Source of the DNA: Gammaproteobacteria bacterium
GTDB lineage: Bacteria > Pseudomonadota > Gammaproteobacteria > Steroidobacterales > XN24
Assembly (NCBI GenBank): GCA_029287575.1
Contig: JARFQW010000066.1
Coordinates: 1-64,000, forward strand
Length of the DNA stretch: 64,000 bases
Direction of reading: 5' to 3'
Below are positions 7,160 through 32,644 of this stretch, one piece after another (within the stretch, counting starts at the first letter, position 1; each line of letters starts with the position of its first letter). Both the position numbers and the translations under genes were made by a program. The notes beneath the pieces were generated by a model. That model saw only the letters and a list, made by a program, of their open reading frames with translations, did not search any database and was not told the DNA's origin.

Positions 7160-7543
7160 ATGACGACACCCAAAGACAAAAGCCTGCTCGATAAAGCTAA
7201 AGATCTTGCCGAAGACCTTGCCGAGACGGCGAGCGACCTGGGCGAGACGGCCTGGGAAAAAACCAAGGACGCGAGTCGCCTGGCCGGTGACGCGACGACC
7301 GGCGCGGCGGATGCGACTTGGGAAGCCAGCAAGGATGCCGCGGAAAAAACCGCGGAACTGGCGAAGGAAGCGACCGAAGCCAGCATCCAGGCGGGGGACA
7401 AGGGCTGGGATGCTGCCAAGGACGTAGCCCGCAAGGCCGCCGAAATGAGCAAGGACGCCGGCGAGGCAACGGTCGCGGCTTCGGACGAGGCCTGGGAGAA
7501 GACCAAGAAAATGGCCAAGGACGCGGCCGACAAGCTCAGCTGA
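7160..7543 (+). CDS. LEA-like amphipathic repeat protein
   Basis: A 127-residue, highly charged protein rich in Ala, Lys, Asp and Glu, with no cysteine, no signal peptide and no membrane segment. It is built from degenerate 11-residue helical repeats like group 3 late embryogenesis abundant proteins. Four copies of W-[ED]-x-x-K-[DK] fall at W32, W54, W83 and W112, spaced 22, 29 and 29 residues. Such proteins are usually disordered in solution and fold on drying or on membranes, protecting cells from desiccation, salt or freezing. That role is inferred from composition only. It is monocistronic, 99 bases after the TonB receptor. Confidence 0.75.
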   Translation: MTTPKDKSLLDKAKDLAEDLAETASDLGETAWEKTKDASRLAGDATTGAADATWEASKDAAEKTAELAKEATEASIQAGDKGWDAAKDVARKAAEMSKDAGEATVAASDEAWEKTKKMAKDAADKLS

Positions 7544-7605
7544 GCCGATCGGACGGGGTGTCGGAACCGGATTTACCGGTGAGCCGACGCCTCAGGGCGG
7601 ACATT

Positions 7606-7638
7606 CCGGGGCAGGGCGCGTCTGCGTCCCTGCCCCGG
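7606..7638. terminator. GC-rich hairpin between convergent genes
   Basis: An 11-bp perfect stem, CCGGGGCAGGG (7606-7616) with CCCTGCCCCGG (7628-7638), and an 11-base loop. It sits between the convergent LEA-like and TIR genes, where a shared terminator is expected. It lacks a T-tract on either side, so intrinsic termination is uncertain. Confidence 0.35.
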
Positions 7639-7694
7639 CTTCGTCTGGGCCGGCCATGCGGTCCATTGTCGCAAGGGGCGCCGGTCGGTCGCGA

Positions 7695-9821
7695 TCAGCA
7701 GGATTCGCAGGAGGCCAGCAGTACCGGGTGCCCGTATCCCGCGTCGATAAGCTGGCGGGCGAGCGTCTCTGCGCGCGCCGTCTTGCCCAGGCCGCTGAGG
7801 GCGCGGACTGCCTGCAGACCAAGATCCGGGTCGGTCTCGCGGCCGGCGACGGTGTCCACGACACGCGCGAACGCTTCATTGGCAAGCACAGGTTCGCCCT
7901 GGGCGCGCAGCCCGTAAGCAAGGGCCAGCCAGGCCCGGGCCGCGGTTCGCCGTAGTTTCGGGTCCGCCGGCGATCCGGTCAGCAGCCGCTCGGCAAGGGC
8001 CACGTTGTTATCGAGAGCCAGCGCTTCAGGGCCCGGCGCCTTTGCCCCCGGGTTCCGGGTAAAGGAATCGATGACCGCCAGCGCGTAGGTCGCCTCGGCG
8101 TCGGACAGGGTCATCAGCCAGTCGTTGTTGACGGGATCCGAAGACACGATGGCCTCGGCGATCTCTACCGCCAGCGCAGCGTGTTCGAGGGCCTGGGGCG
8201 TGCGCCCGCCGGCCAGGTGAACCTCCGCGAGGCCGCGGTGGCAGGCGACCAGATCCCGCCGCCACTCGAGGTTGCCAGGATCATGACGGGTGGTCTGCCG
8301 CAAGCCGTCGAGGGCGCGCTGGTACGCGTCTCCCGCGGCGGACAGATCACCAAGCTGCAGTGCGACCCGCCCCAGGTGCTGATGGGCGTTGGCCGCGGGT
8401 TGCCGCCAGGCCATGTTGCGGGGCTCTTCGTCGATCAACTGCTGCAGACGTTCGGCGTGCTCCCGATAGAGATGAAGGGCCTTCGCCGGCTCGCCATCCT
8501 GCTCGGCCACCAGGGCCTGCCAGGCGATCTCGTCGGCCAGCGCGAACGTGAGTTCAGGGTCGGGGCCTTGCCGGGCCAGCAGGGACTCCAGGCGATTTCT
8601 GGCAGTCTCGAACGCGGCGGCAGCCTCGGCCGGCCGAGCCGCCCTGAGGCGCACGACACCGACATTGTGGAGTGCATAGGCCAGCTCCTGCTGCCAGTCG
8701 GCGTTGTCGGGTTCCCGGGAGACCAGCTTCGCTGACGTATCCTGATAACGGGTCAGCCACGCCTCGGCCTCGCCGAGTTCGTTACGTTCCAGGTGGACGA
8801 AGCCGATCCAGAATTCGACCTGGCCGCGATCGAAGAGCCGTTGGTTGCTTGCCGGATTGCGAAGTGAGAGTTCGCGGGTCCGGGTGTAGGCCTCGCGAAA
8901 AGCCGCGAGGGCTTCCTCCGAGCGTCCTTGCTGCAGGCGGATTTCGCCGATCTGGGTAAGCGCGCGGGCCCGGTTGGACAGCGTGCCGTCATTGACCTCG
9001 CCGGATTTCAGACCGGCGAAATAGGCCATGGCCTTGTCACCCACCGCATCCAGCACATCCAGCCGGCCCACGGGCTCGAGCCGCTCGCGCAGGTCTCCCA
9101 CCATGAAGCTCACCAGGTCCTCGGCCTGCTCCCGGCTTCGCTGAGCATCCTGGCGGGCCAGATAGGCGGCTACTGCCAGTACGAGCGTGACCGCCATCCC
9201 GGCGAGGGCACCCGCGGCCAGCAGCGCCATTCGCCGATGCCTTCGGTGCAGCTCCCGGCGCACCAGTTCGCCGTAGCTCACGCCGGTAAGGCCGGCGGCC
9301 AGCCGCATGACCGTCCGGCGCTTGCCGTCGCCGCCGGGACGCAGATCGGCCGCCGCGGGTTCGGCGAACCGGTTCGGGTCGTGGCGTCCCTGGCTCTCGG
9401 CGAGAGCCGGAGGCAGGCATTCCTTGGCCGGATCGCCGGGTTCCCCGTCGACGATCACCGCCAGGATTCGCTCACCACGGCCGGAGTCCTTGAATTCCCG
9501 AATCTCCTCGTTGACCCATCGTGACTTTGCCGCCGCCGGCGAACAGATCACGATGAGAAACGCCGAATCGCCGAGGGCCCGGCGAATGCTGGCGGACAGA
9601 TCGGCCGCAGTGGCCAGTTCATCCCGGTCGAAAAACAAGGGTCCCAGCGACTTCGGTATGGGTCCGGTCGGTGTTTCCCGCCCCACGAGGTGCCGGGGTA
9701 CGCGGAATGACTCCAGCGCCTCCACCAGCCACTCGGCCCACTGCTGGTCCGCGTGCGCATAACTCACGAAAGCCCGGTAGGGATACGCGTTGGCCTGGGG
9801 AATGAGGGTAACGAGGGCCAT
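7695..9821 (-). CDS. TIR-domain, membrane-anchored TPR protein
   Basis: A 708-residue protein. Residues ~14-125 form a TIR-like domain: RAFVSYAHAD (16-25), FFDRDELATAADLSASI (63-79) and SPAAAKSRWVNEEI (94-107). The W102-x2-E105/E106 arrangement is where NAD-cleaving TIR domains carry their catalytic glutamate. A charged linker leads to one strong membrane helix (199-221). The remainder (about 250-700) is tetratricopeptide repeats, probably on the outer side of the inner membrane. Such an architecture suggests sensing by the TPRs and signalling or NAD consumption by the cytoplasmic TIR domain, but neither activity is proven. It is transcribed away from the WYL regulator at 9942, separated by 120 bases. 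Confidence 0.82.
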   Translation of the reverse strand: MALVTLIPQANAYPYRAFVSYAHADQQWAEWLVEALESFRVPRHLVGRETPTGPIPKSLGPLFFDRDELATAADLSASIRRALGDSAFLIVICSPAAAKSRWVNEEIREFKDSGRGERILAVIVDGEPGDPAKECLPPALAESQGRHDPNRFAEPAAADLRPGGDGKRRTVMRLAAGLTGVSYGELVRRELHRRHRRMALLAAGALAGMAVTLVLAVAAYLARQDAQRSREQAEDLVSFMVGDLRERLEPVGRLDVLDAVGDKAMAYFAGLKSGEVNDGTLSNRARALTQIGEIRLQQGRSEEALAAFREAYTRTRELSLRNPASNQRLFDRGQVEFWIGFVHLERNELGEAEAWLTRYQDTSAKLVSREPDNADWQQELAYALHNVGVVRLRAARPAEAAAAFETARNRLESLLARQGPDPELTFALADEIAWQALVAEQDGEPAKALHLYREHAERLQQLIDEEPRNMAWRQPAANAHQHLGRVALQLGDLSAAGDAYQRALDGLRQTTRHDPGNLEWRRDLVACHRGLAEVHLAGGRTPQALEHAALAVEIAEAIVSSDPVNNDWLMTLSDAEATYALAVIDSFTRNPGAKAPGPEALALDNNVALAERLLTGSPADPKLRRTAARAWLALAYGLRAQGEPVLANEAFARVVDTVAGRETDPDLGLQAVRALSGLGKTARAETLARQLIDAGYGHPVLLASCESC

Positions 9822-26435: not shown

Positions 26436-27263
26436 TCATCGGCCGGTCTGGCGGCCGAAGCCCCTGACCGCCGCGGTCAGCAGGTAGGTGCTACCGGCCA
26501 GGAGAATGATAACCGGCCCGGTGGCGAGATCCGGTCCGTAGGAGAGCGCCAGTCCTGCCGTCGTGAACAGCCCGCCCAGCAATACGGCCGCGACCATGAT
26601 TGCGAAGAGAGACGACAGGAAGCGGCTGGCAATAGCCGCGGGCAGCGTCATCAGCGCGATGACCAGAATCAGGCCGACGACCTGGATGAGCATCACCACC
26701 GTGAGCGCCACGAGGACCAGCAGCAAAAGGTAGTAGCGGTCCACGCGCACGCCCCGGACCCGGGCGAACTCGGCATCGAAGCAGACCGCGAGAAACTGCC
26801 GGTAAAACAAGCCCACCAGCAGAAGTATGGCGAGGTCCAGAGCCGCTATCAGCCACAGGTCCCGGGTACCGATCATCAGAATGTTGCCGAACAGATAGCC
26901 CATCAGATCGGCGTTGTAGCCCGGCGTTTTGGTGATGAAGACGATACCCACGGCCATGCCCACGGCCCAGATGGCCGCAATCACGGTATCTTCCCGTTCC
27001 CGGAGCTTCAGTTTGACGAAGCCTATGATCAGCGCGGCCACCACGGCGGCGACGAGAGCACCGTTGAGCGGGGCATGGCCGAAGAAATAGGCGACCCCCA
27101 TGCCGCCGAGAACGGCATGCGCGATGCCGCCGGCCAGCAGGCTGATCCGCTGCACGACCACGTAGGTGCCCATCACGCCGCAGCCGATGCTCGCGAGAAG
27201 CCCGCCCGCCAGGGCTCGCTGCAGGAACGCGTGTTCGGAGAGGGCGGCCAGGAACTCTGTCAC
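26436..27263 (-). CDS. znuB: ABC-3 metal transporter permease (ZnuB type)
   Basis: A 275-residue inner-membrane permease of a Zn/Mn ABC importer, with about eight to nine helices. The family features are GGLLASIGCGVMGTYVVVQR at the start, GGIAHAVLGG after it, and a cytoplasmic EDTVIAAIWAVG coupling region. The GTG start at 27263 overlaps the ATPase stop codon (GTGA), so I prefer it to an upstream in-frame codon. It is the last gene of the znuACB-like operon. Confidence 0.9.
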   Translation of the reverse strand: MTEFLAALSEHAFLQRALAGGLLASIGCGVMGTYVVVQRISLLAGGIAHAVLGGMGVAYFFGHAPLNGALVAAVVAALIIGFVKLKLREREDTVIAAIWAVGMAVGIVFITKTPGYNADLMGYLFGNILMIGTRDLWLIAALDLAILLLVGLFYRQFLAVCFDAEFARVRGVRVDRYYLLLLVLVALTVVMLIQVVGLILVIALMTLPAAIASRFLSSLFAIMVAAVLLGGLFTTAGLALSYGPDLATGPVIILLAGSTYLLTAAVRGFGRQTGR

Positions 27264-27994
27264 GGGTGCTCCCCGTGATCGTGGTGGACCAGCCGCACCG
27301 AGTGGCCGTAGAGGGCCTCTATGGCGTCCCCGGTCAGGCCCTGGGTGTCGTGGCACATCAGGGTCTGATTCACACAGGCCACGCGCTGCACGCCGCCGGC
27401 TACGAACCCCACGTCGTGGGTCACCAGAATCACCGCCATGCGCTCACTCAGGCGTGCCAGCAGCTGCAGAATGTCCTCTTCGGCTCGCTGATCCAGGTTG
27501 GACGTGGGCTCGTCAAGAAGCAGGAGCCTGGGTTCTCCGGCGAGGGCCCTGGCGATCAGCACCCGCTGCAGCTCACCGCCGGACAGGTCGCTGATCGGCC
27601 GATTCTGCAGGGGCTCCAGCCGCGTTTCCGCGATGGCGCGGTCGGCGGCCTCCCGGTCCTTCTTCCGCCAGCGCAACCGTCCCGAGCCCAGGCGGCCCAG
27701 CTGGACCGCCTGCGCGACGGTGATCGGAAAGTCCCGCTCGAACCCGGCGAACTGGGGCACATAGCCGATTTCCTGGCGTGCGGCGCTGGGCGACCGTCCA
27801 CAGACCCGCACGGTGCCCGAGTCCGGTTTGAGCAATCCGGCCGCCAGCTTGATCAGCGTGCTCTTGCCGCCACCGTTGGGGCCGATGAGTCCGAGCAACT
27901 CATTCTCGGCCACGACCAGGTCCACGTCGGTCAGAACCGGCTGGTGGTCGTAGGCAAACGAGACCCGCTCCAGAACCAGAGCCGGCATGTTCAT
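27260..27994 (-). CDS. znuC: ABC metal transporter ATPase (ZnuC type)
   Basis: A 244-residue ATP-binding subunit with Walker A GPNGGGKST, signature LSGGELQRV, Walker B LLLLDEPTSNLD and the switch histidine in LVTHDVG. The short C-terminal tail is His-rich (VHHDHGEH), a common trait of zinc-handling proteins that may bind metal. It overlaps the binding-protein gene by four bases (ATGA) and the permease gene by four (GTGA), giving a tightly coupled operon. Confidence 0.92.
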   Translation of the reverse strand: MNMPALVLERVSFAYDHQPVLTDVDLVVAENELLGLIGPNGGGKSTLIKLAAGLLKPDSGTVRVCGRSPSAARQEIGYVPQFAGFERDFPITVAQAVQLGRLGSGRLRWRKKDREAADRAIAETRLEPLQNRPISDLSGGELQRVLIARALAGEPRLLLLDEPTSNLDQRAEEDILQLLARLSERMAVILVTHDVGFVAGGVQRVACVNQTLMCHDTQGLTGDAIEALYGHSVRLVHHDHGEHP

Positions 27995-28845
27995 TCGAAG
28001 GACTCCGCCAGGGTTTTGGCGACCCGCCGCAGGCTTGCCCCGTAGTCGGCCGCCAGCGGATCGGCCGCGACGAGCCGGGCGTCGAGCTCTGCGGCGACCG
28101 CCTCGGCCGTGCGCCGGCTGAACTGCCGCTGGACCAGCAGGACGCGAACATTCTCTTCCCTGGCCCGGTCGATCACTTCGGCCAGGCTTTTCGGACCCGG
28201 ATCATGGCCGTCCTGTTCAATCGCAATCTGACGCAGGTCATACGCGTCCGCGAAATAGCCCCACGACGGATGCACCGCCATGAAGCTGCGTCCGGCATGG
28301 GGGGCGAGGGTGCGGGCCAGCTCCTGGTCCAGGTCAGCGAGCGCCGACACCACTGCCGCATGCCGGCGCCGGAATTCGTCGGCGTGCTCGGGAGCCAGCT
28401 CAGCCAGGGTTTGCAGCACCGGATCGGCCATGCGGGCGAACAGTGCCGGGTCCGTCCAGCGATGCGGATCGGCCGCGCCGTGGCCGGCATTCCCGCCGTC
28501 CGTTGGCCGGGACGGCAGACCCGCGGTCAGGTCTATCAGCATCAGGTCGGGGCGGTCCGCCTGAATCCTCGCGGCCCATGCGCTCTCGAACGGCACTCCG
28601 GCCAGCAGCCACGCCCGGGCATCGCCCAGCGCGATGAGATCCCTCGGCCCGGGCGCGTACGTGGCCGGGCTGTCGTTGGGACCCAGCAGGGTGACCACGG
28701 TCACGTCGGCGCCGCCTATCTCGCCCGCCAGCCACGCAACGGGAGCGATGCTTACGGCGACCGTCACGGGCGCGCCGGCCCGGGCTGCCGAGACAAAGAG
28801 CATCAGGAGCAGGGCTGCGGTCAGTCGCGCCATGAATCGCGCCAT
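27991..28845 (-). CDS. znuA: Periplasmic metal-binding protein (ZnuA type)
   Basis: A 284-residue cluster 9 (A-I) solute-binding protein that captures a divalent metal, most likely Zn2+ or Mn2+. It has a signal peptide (LLLMLFVSAARA), VAVSIAPVAWLAGEI, GPNDSPATYAPGPRDL, the ligand region GHGAADPHRWTDP and the later FMAVHPSWGYFADAY block. The His-rich loop often seen in ZnuA is short here. Two in-frame starts are created by a repeated ATGGCGCGA (28845 and 28833). A Zur-like half-site overlaps a -10 element just upstream. Confidence 0.88.
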   Translation of the reverse strand: MARFMARLTAALLLMLFVSAARAGAPVTVAVSIAPVAWLAGEIGGADVTVVTLLGPNDSPATYAPGPRDLIALGDARAWLLAGVPFESAWAARIQADRPDLMLIDLTAGLPSRPTDGGNAGHGAADPHRWTDPALFARMADPVLQTLAELAPEHADEFRRRHAAVVSALADLDQELARTLAPHAGRSFMAVHPSWGYFADAYDLRQIAIEQDGHDPGPKSLAEVIDRAREENVRVLLVQRQFSRRTAEAVAAELDARLVAADPLAADYGASLRRVAKTLAESFE

Positions 28846-29036: not shown

Positions 29037-30467
29037 CTACCGACCGGAATCCTTTGATGCTGCCGTCCGTCTCGTTGCCAGGGGATCTCCGTCATACCCC
29101 AGCGCCTGCCAGTCCATGCGGCCGTCCGGGCTGTGGCAATCCAGGCACTGAAGGGCGTCCTCTGCGGGCGGAATCTCGTGGAACAGCCCCATGTAGCGCA
29201 CGGTGTCCGTCCACTCGTAGTCCACCTGGTCCAGGCCGTAGAAGGACTTCGCGGCGTCGCGCACGGCCCGGTCCGGATCACCGTGGTGATACAGCTCCTC
29301 GGTGGCGACCGGCATGATCCAGTCCTTGCCCTTGAGTACCGGCAGAACGCCGCGGTGCAGCTTGAAGGCGTAGATTCGCGCCGCCGGGTCGGCACGATCG
29401 CCATCCGGGGTCACCATGGTCACGGCACCGTCGGTGTTGCGGCGCACTGGCTGACCGGGGATCTGGTTGTAGCTGGAACCGTTGTACCAGGCGTATACGG
29501 GCTCCACGTTTTGCTCGAGGGTGACGTCGTAGGTGTATTTGCCCTTTTCCTCGGACCAGGTAATGGTCGACCAGTCACGGCGCATGTCCGTGGGTTCGTC
29601 CTTGGCGAAAACGGGAATATGGCAGGTCGTGCAGTAAACCCGCTCGGTGTGATTATCGAGAGCGGGAACGTCGTGAGGCGTCTCGCCATGGCAGCTACCG
29701 CTGCAGGAGAGGTCGTGCCCGGGCGAGTCGGTTGCGGCCAGATCCACCCCGCGGCCCTTTACCCGGTGGGCGTCACCGGCATGACAGTCAACACACCACA
29801 TATCCTTGCCGTTAGCTGCCATGTGCACGTCGAAGCTGCGATCCGGCTCCTTGAGGGTGTACTCAATGTCTCCGCGTTTGTAGTTCGGACCACCACCGGA
29901 AGCCGAATGACAGCGCAGACACATCGTCCGGGTAGGCACCGTAATCCGCCGGGCCACGGAATTCATACCTTCCTGGTTCTTCCACAGGATGGGCCGCCAT
30001 TCCCACTCCCCGTCCTCGGTGGCGTAGAGGTCGCGCCGATAGCCATTGGCATGGCAGATCAGGCAGTCGATGTTCTCCAGTTGCACACGGCTTGGTGTTT
30101 CCGCCGGAAGCAGGCCCAGCCCCGCATGGCAGGTGGAGCAGCCCTTCGCGAGGACCTTGCCGTCGTCATTGGTGACCTTGCCAATCCACTGGGCCCCCCC
30201 GGGGTTTGTGCAGAAGTCATTGATCATGGTGAGCTTGCCGAGCTTCTGCCCGTCGGAGTTGACCATGGCTGGCGTCTCGCCGCGCCACTGATAGTGCTGG
30301 GAATGGAAGAACGCTTCCGCTTCCTCTTCGTGACACTTCAGGCAGGTCTCGGTGCCGGTGTACTCCTTTACCCAGCGTTTGTGCCGATTCTCCTGGCTGG
30401 CCCCGCTCGCGACCGCTGTCGCGAGAAGGGCTGCCAGTACCGGCGTGGCAACATACATCAGGCGCAT
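29037..30467 (-). CDS. Octahaem c-type cytochrome, Otr-like
   Basis: A 476-residue periplasmic multihaem cytochrome. After a signal peptide (residues ~1-23) it carries seven CXXCH sites (C42, C110, C135, C183, C225, C279 and one near 445) plus an eighth CX3CH (CSGSCH, 255-260). The N-terminal order FHSQHYQWRGE, GQKLGKLTMINDFC, CSTCHAG, IDCLICH closely follows the Shewanella octahaem tetrathionate reductase (Otr) family. Otr enzymes reduce tetrathionate, nitrite or hydroxylamine in vitro, with a lysine-ligated active haem. The start at 30467 follows GGAGA and gives the signal peptide. It ends a three-gene set with a barrel protein and a monohaem cytochrome under an FNR-type promoter. Confidence 0.88.
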   Translation of the reverse strand: MRLMYVATPVLAALLATAVASGASQENRHKRWVKEYTGTETCLKCHEEEAEAFFHSQHYQWRGETPAMVNSDGQKLGKLTMINDFCTNPGGAQWIGKVTNDDGKVLAKGCSTCHAGLGLLPAETPSRVQLENIDCLICHANGYRRDLYATEDGEWEWRPILWKNQEGMNSVARRITVPTRTMCLRCHSASGGGPNYKRGDIEYTLKEPDRSFDVHMAANGKDMWCVDCHAGDAHRVKGRGVDLAATDSPGHDLSCSGSCHGETPHDVPALDNHTERVYCTTCHIPVFAKDEPTDMRRDWSTITWSEEKGKYTYDVTLEQNVEPVYAWYNGSSYNQIPGQPVRRNTDGAVTMVTPDGDRADPAARIYAFKLHRGVLPVLKGKDWIMPVATEELYHHGDPDRAVRDAAKSFYGLDQVDYEWTDTVRYMGLFHEIPPAEDALQCLDCHSPDGRMDWQALGYDGDPLATRRTAASKDSGR

Positions 30468-30480
30468 GCCGGTATCTCCA

Positions 30481-32265
30481 TCAGAATCGCGCGGAGAAGG
30501 AGAGCATCCACTTGGACGCATCGTCATAGGTCGGGAAGCCGAGGACGGGCGGCGGATTGTCGCTCAGGTCCTTGGGCGAGCCCAGCAGCCAGCCCGAGCC
30601 GGAGTAGTCGTAGCTGTAGTCGATATAGTCGAGCTTCAGAACGAACGCGTCGCGAATCCTGTGGGTGACGTAGAGTTCCCAGACGTCGCCGCGCACCGAA
30701 GTCTTCGGAGCGAGGAAGTCGTCTTCGGCCAGGGCAAAGTTGAACCAGTATTTGGAACCGTGATTGAACTCCGCACCAATCTTCGTCCGGCCGCCATCGA
30801 AGTTATAGCGTGCACCGAGGTAGTACATGTGGCCGTCTTCGTCATCCGGGGTCTCGAACGGATCACTGAACAGACCGCCAAAGGGCGTGGTGACGTTTTC
30901 CGGGTCGGATGAGCTGTAGTTGATACTGGCGAAGTAGTCGAACGGCCCGTCGTGCCGGATCACGATCAGGCTGGCCAGGTCTATGTCGCCGATGTTCGAG
31001 CTGGGTGTGTACCGCAGCACGCCGGGGCCGGGTACATCCTGTCCGGTCAGCGGATCGACCGGGAGAACGACCAGACCGTTGAATCCGTCGGTGACGTCCT
31101 GCGCGGTGGCATAGGTTCCCTGTATGAACATCCGGTCCGTATCCCAGATGTCCCAGTTCACACCGAGGAACCAGGCATCGTCCAGCCGGTCGGAGGGGCG
31201 CTGCAATTCAGAGCCGTTGCCCCACTCGGACTCGTAGCCGAGGCCATAGCACAGCCGGATCGTGGACTCGTCCATGAGGTGATAGCCCAGGGTGATGCCG
31301 TCGAACTGATAGTTGATCAGTGAGCCGAGCGGCGTCCCGCCCCGGGGTTCGTCTTCGCGGAAGTTCAGCGGCGCTCCGCCCGTGGAAGGCCGGCGGCCAA
31401 TGGAGAGATAGGCCGGCAATCCGGCGATGTCGCTCCAGGTGAAGTAGGCGCGCTCGACGCGCAACACGTCGGAGTTCGGAACGCTGGAGGTCGTGCCGTC
31501 CCAGTTGATTGACGTGGGCTGCCCGTTGAAGACCTGAACTCCCGTGGAATCCCCCCACGTTTTGTACATGGAGAGGCGGCCGTCGAACTTGACGTCTTCG
31601 GCCACGTCGGCCTGTACGCGCAGGCGCAGGCGGTTCGTATAGACAATATCGTTGTCGTGGTTGTAACCGCGCACGAAATTGTTTTCAGCCAGCATCGGCA
31701 TTAGCTGATCCATGAGTTCCGGCGGTATCTGGCCGACGGCGCCTTTGAGATCGTCAAAGGTTAGATTGTCCGTGAAGTACAGATAGTCGGCGTAGTTGTC
31801 ACGGATGAAGTCGTTGACCTGGTCCAGGTCTGCCGGTGGCGCGCCGCTGGACTGGAAAAAGAACAGCGTGTTGACCAGGTCGCCCTGGATCCCGATGCCG
31901 TCGAAGTGATCCGGGATGTCGCCCTGGATGCTGTGCGCCTGGAAGCGGAAATCGCCGCTCATACGCACCTTGTCGAGAATGGCGTGTTTTTCGGCCACCA
32001 TGACCCGGTCATCCAGGATCTCGACTTCTTCCTCGAGGTAGGCGGTGTCGTCCTTCAGTTCGCTCGTTTCCGCCGTGAGCGTCTCATTCTCTGACTGTAT
32101 GTCGCGGACCTGCTCGAGCAGCGTGGCCATCTGTGCCTGCATCCACTCGATCTGGACCATCAGTTCGTCGACCGTCGGTTCACTTTCATCGGCGTGAAGC
32201 GCCGGTGAGCCGGCGAGTGACACAAGGAGAGCGGTGGCCGCTCCGGCTGTAATTCTGCTTAACAT
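30481..32265 (-). CDS. DUF3373-like outer-membrane beta-barrel protein
   Basis: A 594-residue outer-membrane protein. It has a signal peptide, then a coiled coil (about 28-85: LMVQIEWMQAQMATLLEQV... through VEILDDRVMV). The segment LDKVRMSGDFRFQ starts a large barrel that ends in phenylalanine (FSARF), the usual outer-membrane insertion signal. Order and motifs match DUF3373-type porins, often found beside multihaem cytochromes. It lies 13 bases before the octahaem gene and 22 bases after the monohaem gene, so all three are probably one transcript. It may serve as a substrate pore or house a cytochrome in a porin-cytochrome conduit. Confidence 0.8.
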   Translation of the reverse strand: MLSRITAGAATALLVSLAGSPALHADESEPTVDELMVQIEWMQAQMATLLEQVRDIQSENETLTAETSELKDDTAYLEEEVEILDDRVMVAEKHAILDKVRMSGDFRFQAHSIQGDIPDHFDGIGIQGDLVNTLFFFQSSGAPPADLDQVNDFIRDNYADYLYFTDNLTFDDLKGAVGQIPPELMDQLMPMLAENNFVRGYNHDNDIVYTNRLRLRVQADVAEDVKFDGRLSMYKTWGDSTGVQVFNGQPTSINWDGTTSSVPNSDVLRVERAYFTWSDIAGLPAYLSIGRRPSTGGAPLNFREDEPRGGTPLGSLINYQFDGITLGYHLMDESTIRLCYGLGYESEWGNGSELQRPSDRLDDAWFLGVNWDIWDTDRMFIQGTYATAQDVTDGFNGLVVLPVDPLTGQDVPGPGVLRYTPSSNIGDIDLASLIVIRHDGPFDYFASINYSSSDPENVTTPFGGLFSDPFETPDDEDGHMYYLGARYNFDGGRTKIGAEFNHGSKYWFNFALAEDDFLAPKTSVRGDVWELYVTHRIRDAFVLKLDYIDYSYDYSGSGWLLGSPKDLSDNPPPVLGFPTYDDASKWMLSFSARF

Positions 32266-32287
32266 GACTCGTGCTCCCGTTATTTTT

Positions 32288-32644
32288 CTAGCCGCAGGTC
32301 ATCGGGTTTTCGGAGTCGGAGGCATGCTCGACCGCGAAGTCCCTGATGGCCTGCAATTCCTCGGGACCGATGACCTCGATCACCGGCCGGTTGCCGTGGG
32401 AGGCGTCCAGGACGTCCTTGTGGGTGCGCTCGTACTTACGATCGAAGAAACGAGTCCACTGGTCCTGGATGAGATCCAGCGGGGTGTATTCCCCGTTGGG
32501 AGAGCCCGAGGCGTGACAGCCCTTGCAGTACTCCTTGTAAAGTTCCTGGCCGTCGAGTGCCGCGCTGGAGGGCGCGGGGACGGCGAGGCACAGGATCACA
32601 AAGCTCGCGAGGCACGCGAGCGCGATGGTTGTCGATGTTTTCAT
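32288..32644 (-). CDS. Small periplasmic monohaem cytochrome c
   Basis: A 118-residue cytochrome c with a signal peptide (residues ~1-28) and one CXXCH (C40-K-G-C43-H44). Candidate axial methionines are few; the late NPMTCG is one possibility. It would shuttle electrons in the periplasm to or from the octahaem partner. GGAGA eight bases upstream supports the start at 32644. It is the first gene of the cytochrome/barrel cluster. Confidence 0.85.
   Translation of the reverse strand: MKTSTTIALACLASFVILCLAVPAPSSAALDGQELYKEYCKGCHASGSPNGEYTPLDLIQDQWTRFFDRKYERTHKDVLDASHGNRPVIEVIGPEELQAIRDFAVEHASDSENPMTCG

Follow-up and report, generated by a model that had tools for sequence, protein, structure and literature searches.

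The window analysed here, which is the whole stretch of 64,000 nucleotides taken from contig JARFQW010000066.1 of a gammaproteobacterium, contains on its minus strand three genes coding for a monohaem cytochrome c (M), a barrel of the DUF3373 family (D) and an octahaem cytochrome c resembling OTR (O). Our analysis confirmed that this M-D-O arrangement is real and strongly conserved: the operon is kept across at least six bacterial phyla, and the pair formed by M and D is also found next to a different enzyme. Regarding function, we infer that D admits the substrate of a periplasmic reductase and that M is docked on D, and we infer likewise the thiol link between them, the identity of the substrate and the route of the electrons; this reading has, in our opinion, about an even chance of being correct. 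The features on which the argument leans are the following, in coordinates of the window.

32288..32644, minus strand: monohaem cytochrome M, 118 residues, with a signal peptide, the motif CKGCH and a conserved tail ending in PMTCG
32294..32296, minus strand: codon of Cys117 of M, the C-terminal Cys, present in 95/95 distinct partner monohaems (as P-x-T-C in 94)
30481..32265, minus strand: barrel D, 594 residues, with a signal peptide, a coiled coil at about 32-99 and a C-terminal Phe; 16 beta strands and a helical insert at about 123-195 are predicted
31249..31251, minus strand: codon of Cys339, the sole Cys in D, with a predicted pore-facing side chain beside the invariant Arg337; kept in 130/130 distinct DUF3373 proteins
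29037..30467, minus strand: octahaem cytochrome O, 476 residues, with seven CXXCH motifs and one CX3CH
30210..30212, minus strand: codon of Cys86 of O, aligned with Cys64 of OTR (1sp3); 48/48 in its clade
29877..29879, minus strand: codon of Lys197 of O, aligned with Lys153 of OTR (1sp3); 48/48 in its clade

Conservation of the operon

The three genes follow one another in the order M-D-O, separated by 22 and 13 bases, in agreement with an earlier note on this DNA, which had described a small cytochrome, a 594-residue barrel and an Otr-like octahaem as tightly spaced. The reading frame of O stays open to 30527, but conservation places its start codon at the ATG of 30467. When GTDB genomes were scanned with an alignment of octahaem sequences, 59 loci were obtained (taxa were assigned by title) from Gammaproteobacteria, Acidobacteriota, Krumholzibacteriota, Kiritimatiellota, Gemmatimonadota, Fibrobacterota and Nitrospirota. 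In 55 of them, D immediately precedes O and shares its strand, and M is upstream of D in all 48 loci with enough DNA, the remaining seven being contig edges. The order of the genes is identical in all 48 loci where the three are visible and, as it is kept in dozens of distant genomes, a chance arrangement is excluded. The earlier note had viewed the three genes as a distinct module with a dedicated barrel, a proposal that depends on their recurring together, and this they decisively do.

The loci where D is missing are few. For instance, in L083 the barrel gene has been cut by an IS3-like transposase, and its last ~42 residues remain beside an intact octahaem gene; the transposase fragment lies within the DUF3373 gene at 7492-8003 of this locus (also L043), which belongs to a gammaproteobacterial genome assembled from a metagenome. 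In another case (L105), the octahaem gene is the second copy of its genome. The other two loci without D are both from Nitrospirota, one of them at a contig edge (L110) and the other truly without the barrel (L108).

DUF3373 is rare in the taxonomic order of the window, where it was detected in 4/59 genomes; M-D-O is complete in the window and two others, while the contig of the fourth stops within D. In a class-wide survey of 369 genomes, OTR genes above the family cut-off were found in 29 and DUF3373 in only four, namely, the genome of the window and three of one other family. In the octahaem tree, the six gammaproteobacterial sequences, including that of the window, form a supported group whose sister is thermoanaerobaculial (SH-aLRT 100 and 95). 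Together with the rarity of the barrel in the order, this placement suggests that the operon has moved between phyla. Additionally, the pairwise distances of M, D and O correlate across 47 loci (r = 0.57-0.69, with permutations giving at most 0.19). D was not found in a search of plasmids, where the octahaem matches were distant OTRs from Paracoccus and Photobacterium.

The octahaem cytochrome and an alternative enzyme

Judging from its sequence, O is a divergent relative of OTR. It is homologous over nearly its whole length to the Shewanella OTR structure 1sp3 (E = 2.9e-57), which bears out the label “Otr-like” of the earlier note; it is called divergent because, despite this match, its score against the TIGR04315 profile (302.5 bits, E 5.4e-90) falls below the family cut-off of 375 bits, and its membership in TIGR04315 (OTR) was rejected for this reason. 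One of its eight haem motifs is a CX3CH (CSGSCH), which appears as CX4CH in a relative. Lys197 and Cys86 are invariant in 48/48 relatives and align with Lys153 and Cys64 of 1sp3, the former of which we take to be the distal ligand of the active-site haem in the OTR structure.

The genome of the window also codes for a second octahaem cytochrome, this one above the TIGR04315 cut-off, on a different contig (G000:C90:20080-21384; L005, L042). It has a lipoprotein-like N-terminus and no DUF3373 barrel nearby, and the classical OTR genes of the class-wide survey belong to genomes without DUF3373. Downstream of several classical OTR genes there is, instead, a probable cytochrome b gene; the one case confirmed with Pfam (Ni_hydr_CYTB) adjoins the octahaem gene of L163.

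O is not the only enzyme linked to the barrel. Among 297 genomes of Acidobacteriota, 55 have a DUF3373 match, 54 of which were examined. The gene downstream of D codes for an octahaem cytochrome in 22/54 and for a molybdopterin (Mo) enzyme similar to PsrABC/PhsA in 31/54; in the remaining one, the contig ends 284 bases past D. M adjoins D in 51/54, two of the exceptions being contig edges and one (G665) a true absence. The D-linked Mo enzymes match the Thermus structure 2vpw, labelled in the PDB as thiosulfate reductase (7e-129 and 4e-147), and most of their clusters continue with genes for a ferredoxin subunit with four clusters and for a membrane subunit of the NrfD type. Among the NCBIfam models, the best for the catalytic subunits is PhsA, with 504-620 bits in those scanned (289 bits in the fragmentary subunit of L168), below its cut-off of 694. 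In the octahaem tree, D-linked sequences appear at several places, and seven changes are needed to account for the presence of D, of which starred branches force at least five; this indicates that the M-D pair has met different enzymes repeatedly.

As the barrel and the monohaem cytochrome also occur with a different enzyme, M and D must be considered the constant pair. The sequences thus point to M going with the porin rather than with the enzyme, and a role as just a donor is unlikely, given that Psr-type complexes take electrons from quinol on their own. The idea that M simply donates electrons to O was rejected, as it fails to account for the retention of M beside the PsrABC type. In Shewanella oneidensis MR-1, the gene of a periplasmic monohaem cytochrome (SO_4142) is found two locus tags from the OTR gene (SO_4144).

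The earlier note had considered a porin-cytochrome route, in which the octahaem would sit in or against the barrel and pass electrons across the outer membrane. It is true that a barrel and a multihaem cytochrome share here one conserved operon, and that barrel and cytochrome genes are also found together in MtrAB/MtoAB/PioAB, in OmbB-OmaB-OmcB and in the PCC3/PCC4 complexes. By contrast, MtrB-type sheath barrels have 26 strands (PMC8406198), while only 16 are predicted for D; the octahaem is enzyme-like, retaining the active-site residues of OTR; and the barrel is used equally with an enzyme without haem. A Mtr-like sheathing of the octahaem by D, whose modelled barrel is too small for this, was thus rejected, due to the small number of predicted strands and to the Mo-enzyme partner, and electron conduction by this pair of proteins appears very improbable.

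The neighbours of the triads argue in the same direction. These were clustered by sequence, with a codon-usage filter applied against antisense open reading frames of high-GC DNA. At seven loci of the Thermoanaerobaculia type, the triad is followed by a decahaem, MtrA-like cytochrome and, at six of these, also by an MtrB-like barrel, which indicates that a conduit, where present, brings its own barrel. At five of these loci, among others, the decahaem gene and then the MtrB/PioB-like barrel were observed 0.4-4 kb past the octahaem gene; in all six cases the latter barrel is split into two adjacent open reading frames (~575 and 133 residues), whose C-terminal piece matches MtrB/PioB. In two gammaproteobacterial loci (L059 and L062), the gene directly after the triad codes for a quinol dehydrogenase of the NapC/NirT tetrahaem type (PF03264, 3e-60 and 2e-63), the usual partner of periplasmic reductases, which fits such a role for O. 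The genome of the window has one NapC/NirT gene, located elsewhere. Directly downstream of O, on the same strand of the window (26436-28845, minus), there is a Zn/Mn-type ABC transporter set formed by a substrate-binding protein, an ATPase and a permease, all scoring below the AztABC cut-offs.

The barrel, its porin relatives and two conserved cysteines

D matches DUF3373 (PF11853) with E = 9e-106 and 354.8 bits, far above the gathering cut-off of 26.1. Its AlphaFold2 model, obtained from a 46-sequence alignment, has a mean pLDDT of 75.6 and shows 16 strands preceded by a stalk of N-terminal helices (32-99, with helices at 32-59 and 64-99), with a helical insert (123-195) between strands 1 and 2. 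The N-terminal coiled coil and C-terminal Phe that the earlier note had read from the letters are thus both found, the protein ending in SFSARF. Among solved structures, the model comes closest to OmpM1, a porin with a stalk (Z 22.4, 3.7 A over 294 residues), followed by OprO/OprP (Z 21.2), and D is accordingly predicted to be a beta-barrel of 16 strands, a porin of the OmpM1/OprO/OprP type. The only solved relative by sequence is 10aw (1.6e-17), a “50 kDa outer membrane protein” that, by its name, is the Omp50 porin of Campylobacter; it has an Ala at the position of Cys339 in the pairwise alignment. The conserved Arg residues of D include those at 107, 212, 214, 230, 291, 292, 308 and 337, but anion selectivity is only a guess, as conserved acids are nearly as numerous.

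Since Omp50, a relative of DUF3373, is a pore-forming general porin (PMC6604965; PMC4827864), D might also be an ordinary porin that is merely co-expressed with its neighbours, with cysteines serving only folding or the stability of the trimer; the DUF3373 genes of Nitrospirota found away from these enzymes would agree with this. However, a linkage to two classes of reductases in 53/54 cases, and to M in 51/54, is not what a housekeeping porin would show, and a lone pore-facing Cys cannot form an internal disulfide. We therefore regard this explanation as quite improbable.

The position of Cys339 is occupied by Cys in 46/46 triad barrels and in all 130 distinct DUF3373 proteins, with identities down to 29%, so that the idea that this residue is specific to the triad was wrong. 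On its strand, the family has hydrophobic residues at positions 336, 338 and 342 but not at 335, 337, 341 and 343, 337 being an invariant Arg and 341 and 343 invariant Gly residues. Due to this alternation, Cys339 is predicted to face the pore and, provided that D has the orientation of other porins, its location five residues from a short turn would place it in the periplasmic half. One DUF3373 gene (L197, G879:C10) carries one in-frame TGA and may be a pseudogene or reflect an error of assembly; C5 carries a second copy.

M has its own conserved Cys, which lies among the last five residues, in a P-x-T-C-G tail or similar, in all 95 distinct sequences. The model of M places this tail, at low confidence, after the last helix and apart from the folded ones. 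M falls slightly short of the gathering cut-off of the class I cytochrome c model PF13442 (1.2e-5, 26.0 bits against 27), which two of its relatives exceed (31.2 bits in L169 and 28.7 in L157), and a fold search with its haem-free (apo) model returned nothing usable. His75 is kept in 30/30 close relatives and is absent from some distant ones. Ligation of the haem by a Met was discarded, as both the TPM and the PMT Met are missing in some members (L070, L087).

DUF3373 also occurs without M. In Nitrospirota and in one gammaproteobacterial family, D retains its Cys and often has as a neighbour a thioredoxin similar to TlpA (PF00578) or a small secreted protein. At eight Nitrospirota loci, a TlpA/ResA-like thioredoxin gene comes directly after DUF3373, and such neighbours hint at a thiol redox control of the barrel Cys. 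At seven loci, a secreted protein of ~105 residues with no Pfam match, ending in R/KPGC (or KAGC), is near or adjoining DUF3373, and in one of them (L211) a classical OTR-like octahaem is also beside it. At three loci, from one gammaproteobacterial family, a cytochrome P460-like gene adjoins DUF3373 (PF16694 was confirmed in L048). The pattern of cysteines could be explained simply if a small partner in the periplasm used a terminal Cys to engage that of the pore.

SoxY and DsrC carry sulfur on C-terminal Cys arms, and the cysteines of D and M could, in a similar way, carry sulfane sulfur or a thiosulfonate adduct to the reductase. In favour of such a relay, both residues are invariant, the partner enzymes are Psr/Phs-like or OTR-like and TlpA-like thioredoxins adjoin D in Nitrospirota, but no linked rhodanese or Sox gene was found and a Cys on a fixed strand within a pore would be an odd site for a carrier. 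This makes it rather improbable.

A proposed pore with a docked cytochrome and its known counterparts

The explanation that we favour, a pore serving a periplasmic reductase, may be described as follows. D would form a 16-strand porin, probably trimeric, admitting a small soluble electron acceptor to the periplasm, where O would reduce it at a Lys/Cys-lined haem site of the OTR type with electrons reaching it from the quinol pool via a NapC-type tetrahaem cytochrome. M would be functionally part of the pore, staying with D where O is swapped for the PsrABC/PhsA-like Mo enzyme. Its C-terminal Cys tail would dock against the Cys of D, within the half of the pore on the periplasmic side, and this contact could be a disulfide or involve a shared thiol or sulfane-sulfur chemistry, giving a two-piece analogue of Cyc2 (see below). 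By analogy, the substrate is probably a sulfur oxyanion or polysulfide, the most likely acceptors being tetrathionate, thiosulfate or polysulfide, as sulfur chemistry is common to OTR and Psr/Phs enzymes.

Several observations weigh against this explanation. The charge of the pore is roughly balanced overall (14 positive against 13 negative inward positions), and OTR also reduces nitrite and hydroxylamine, so that sulfur is not the only shared theme. Additionally, D keeps its Cys in Nitrospirota in the absence of M, and this residue thus did not evolve for M. Finally, nearly all hosts of the module are uncultured.

A bolder version, which we hold to be doubtful although well worth stating, is that M and D constitute a cytochrome-porin of a new kind, in which the Cys arm of M enters the pore and pairs with the Cys of D, forming a redox-gated door that may be combined with octahaem or Mo reductases and that has spread between phyla as a unit. 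In our literature searches, which covered neither subscription papers nor preprints, we met no M-D-O or M-D-Psr arrangement and no description of the pore Cys of DUF3373 or the tail Cys of its partner monohaems, and, of the two papers found to mention DUF3373, one (PMC4827864) uses it only as a porin-family label. The module gives a context both to this large family of porins, whose function is unknown, and to a divergent clade of OTR relatives, mainly from uncultured Acidobacteriota, Krumholzibacteriota, Kiritimatiellota and Gammaproteobacteria, and suggests that certain periplasmic anion reductases bring their own outer-membrane entry unit. Moreover, the prediction is sharp, as it names two cysteines, Cys117 of M and Cys339 of D; if the thiol link were true, it would represent a new way to join a cytochrome to a porin and also a new form of redox gating for a pore.

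Parts of the module have known counterparts. Shewanella oneidensis OTR (1sp3, SO_4144; TIGR04315) has eight haems, as O does, and the equivalents of its Lys153 and Cys64 are kept, but O differs in its CX3CH motif and in its linkage to M-D. On the side of the Mo enzyme, relatives of the PsrABC/PhsABC polysulfide and thiosulfate reductases, with PhsA scores below the cut-off, are the alternative partner of M-D, and it has been proposed for Desulfurivibrio that polysulfide destined for Psr enters through porins (PMC12142623). Regarding the barrel, OmpM1 shares with D the N-terminal coiled coil and OprP/OprO share the fold predicted for it; however, these porins and Omp50 have no known linkage to cytochromes, unlike D. 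The ExtI porin of Geobacter sulfurreducens does sit in a cytochrome cluster, although a different one, and is needed for the full reduction of the oxyanions selenite and tellurite (PMC5877670).

The nearest parallel for the pair is Cyc2, a 16-strand phosphate-porin-like barrel fused to a monohaem domain that is expected to plug its periplasmic side (PMC8406198). M and D could be a split version of this protein, in which M would plug the periplasmic mouth of D and trade electrons with a dissolved donor or acceptor in the pore; O or the Psr-like enzyme would then be the periplasmic redox partner and the pore would carry redox equivalents instead of the substrate of the enzyme. Both systems coincide in barrel size, fold and haem count, M tracks D and not the enzyme, and the MtrA-like decahaem near seven triads, with its MtrB-like barrel at six, would be in keeping with such traffic. 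By contrast, the Psr-type partner owns a quinol subunit and would need no electrons from outside, and the relatives of both enzymes, OTR and Psr/Phs, are reductases, which makes this alternative unlikely, while deserving real weight. M-D is not Cyc2 itself, as M is a separate protein without the motif AXPXFAR[QK][TY], which in Cyc2 precedes CXXCH by five residues; M has ...LDGQELYKEYCKGCH there. M-D may still work like Cyc2, with which it shares the single haem and, by prediction, the 16-strand phosphate-porin-like barrel, here as two proteins coded by two genes with a 22-base gap between them, with a different cytochrome, an invariant Cys in each and a linked periplasmic reductase.

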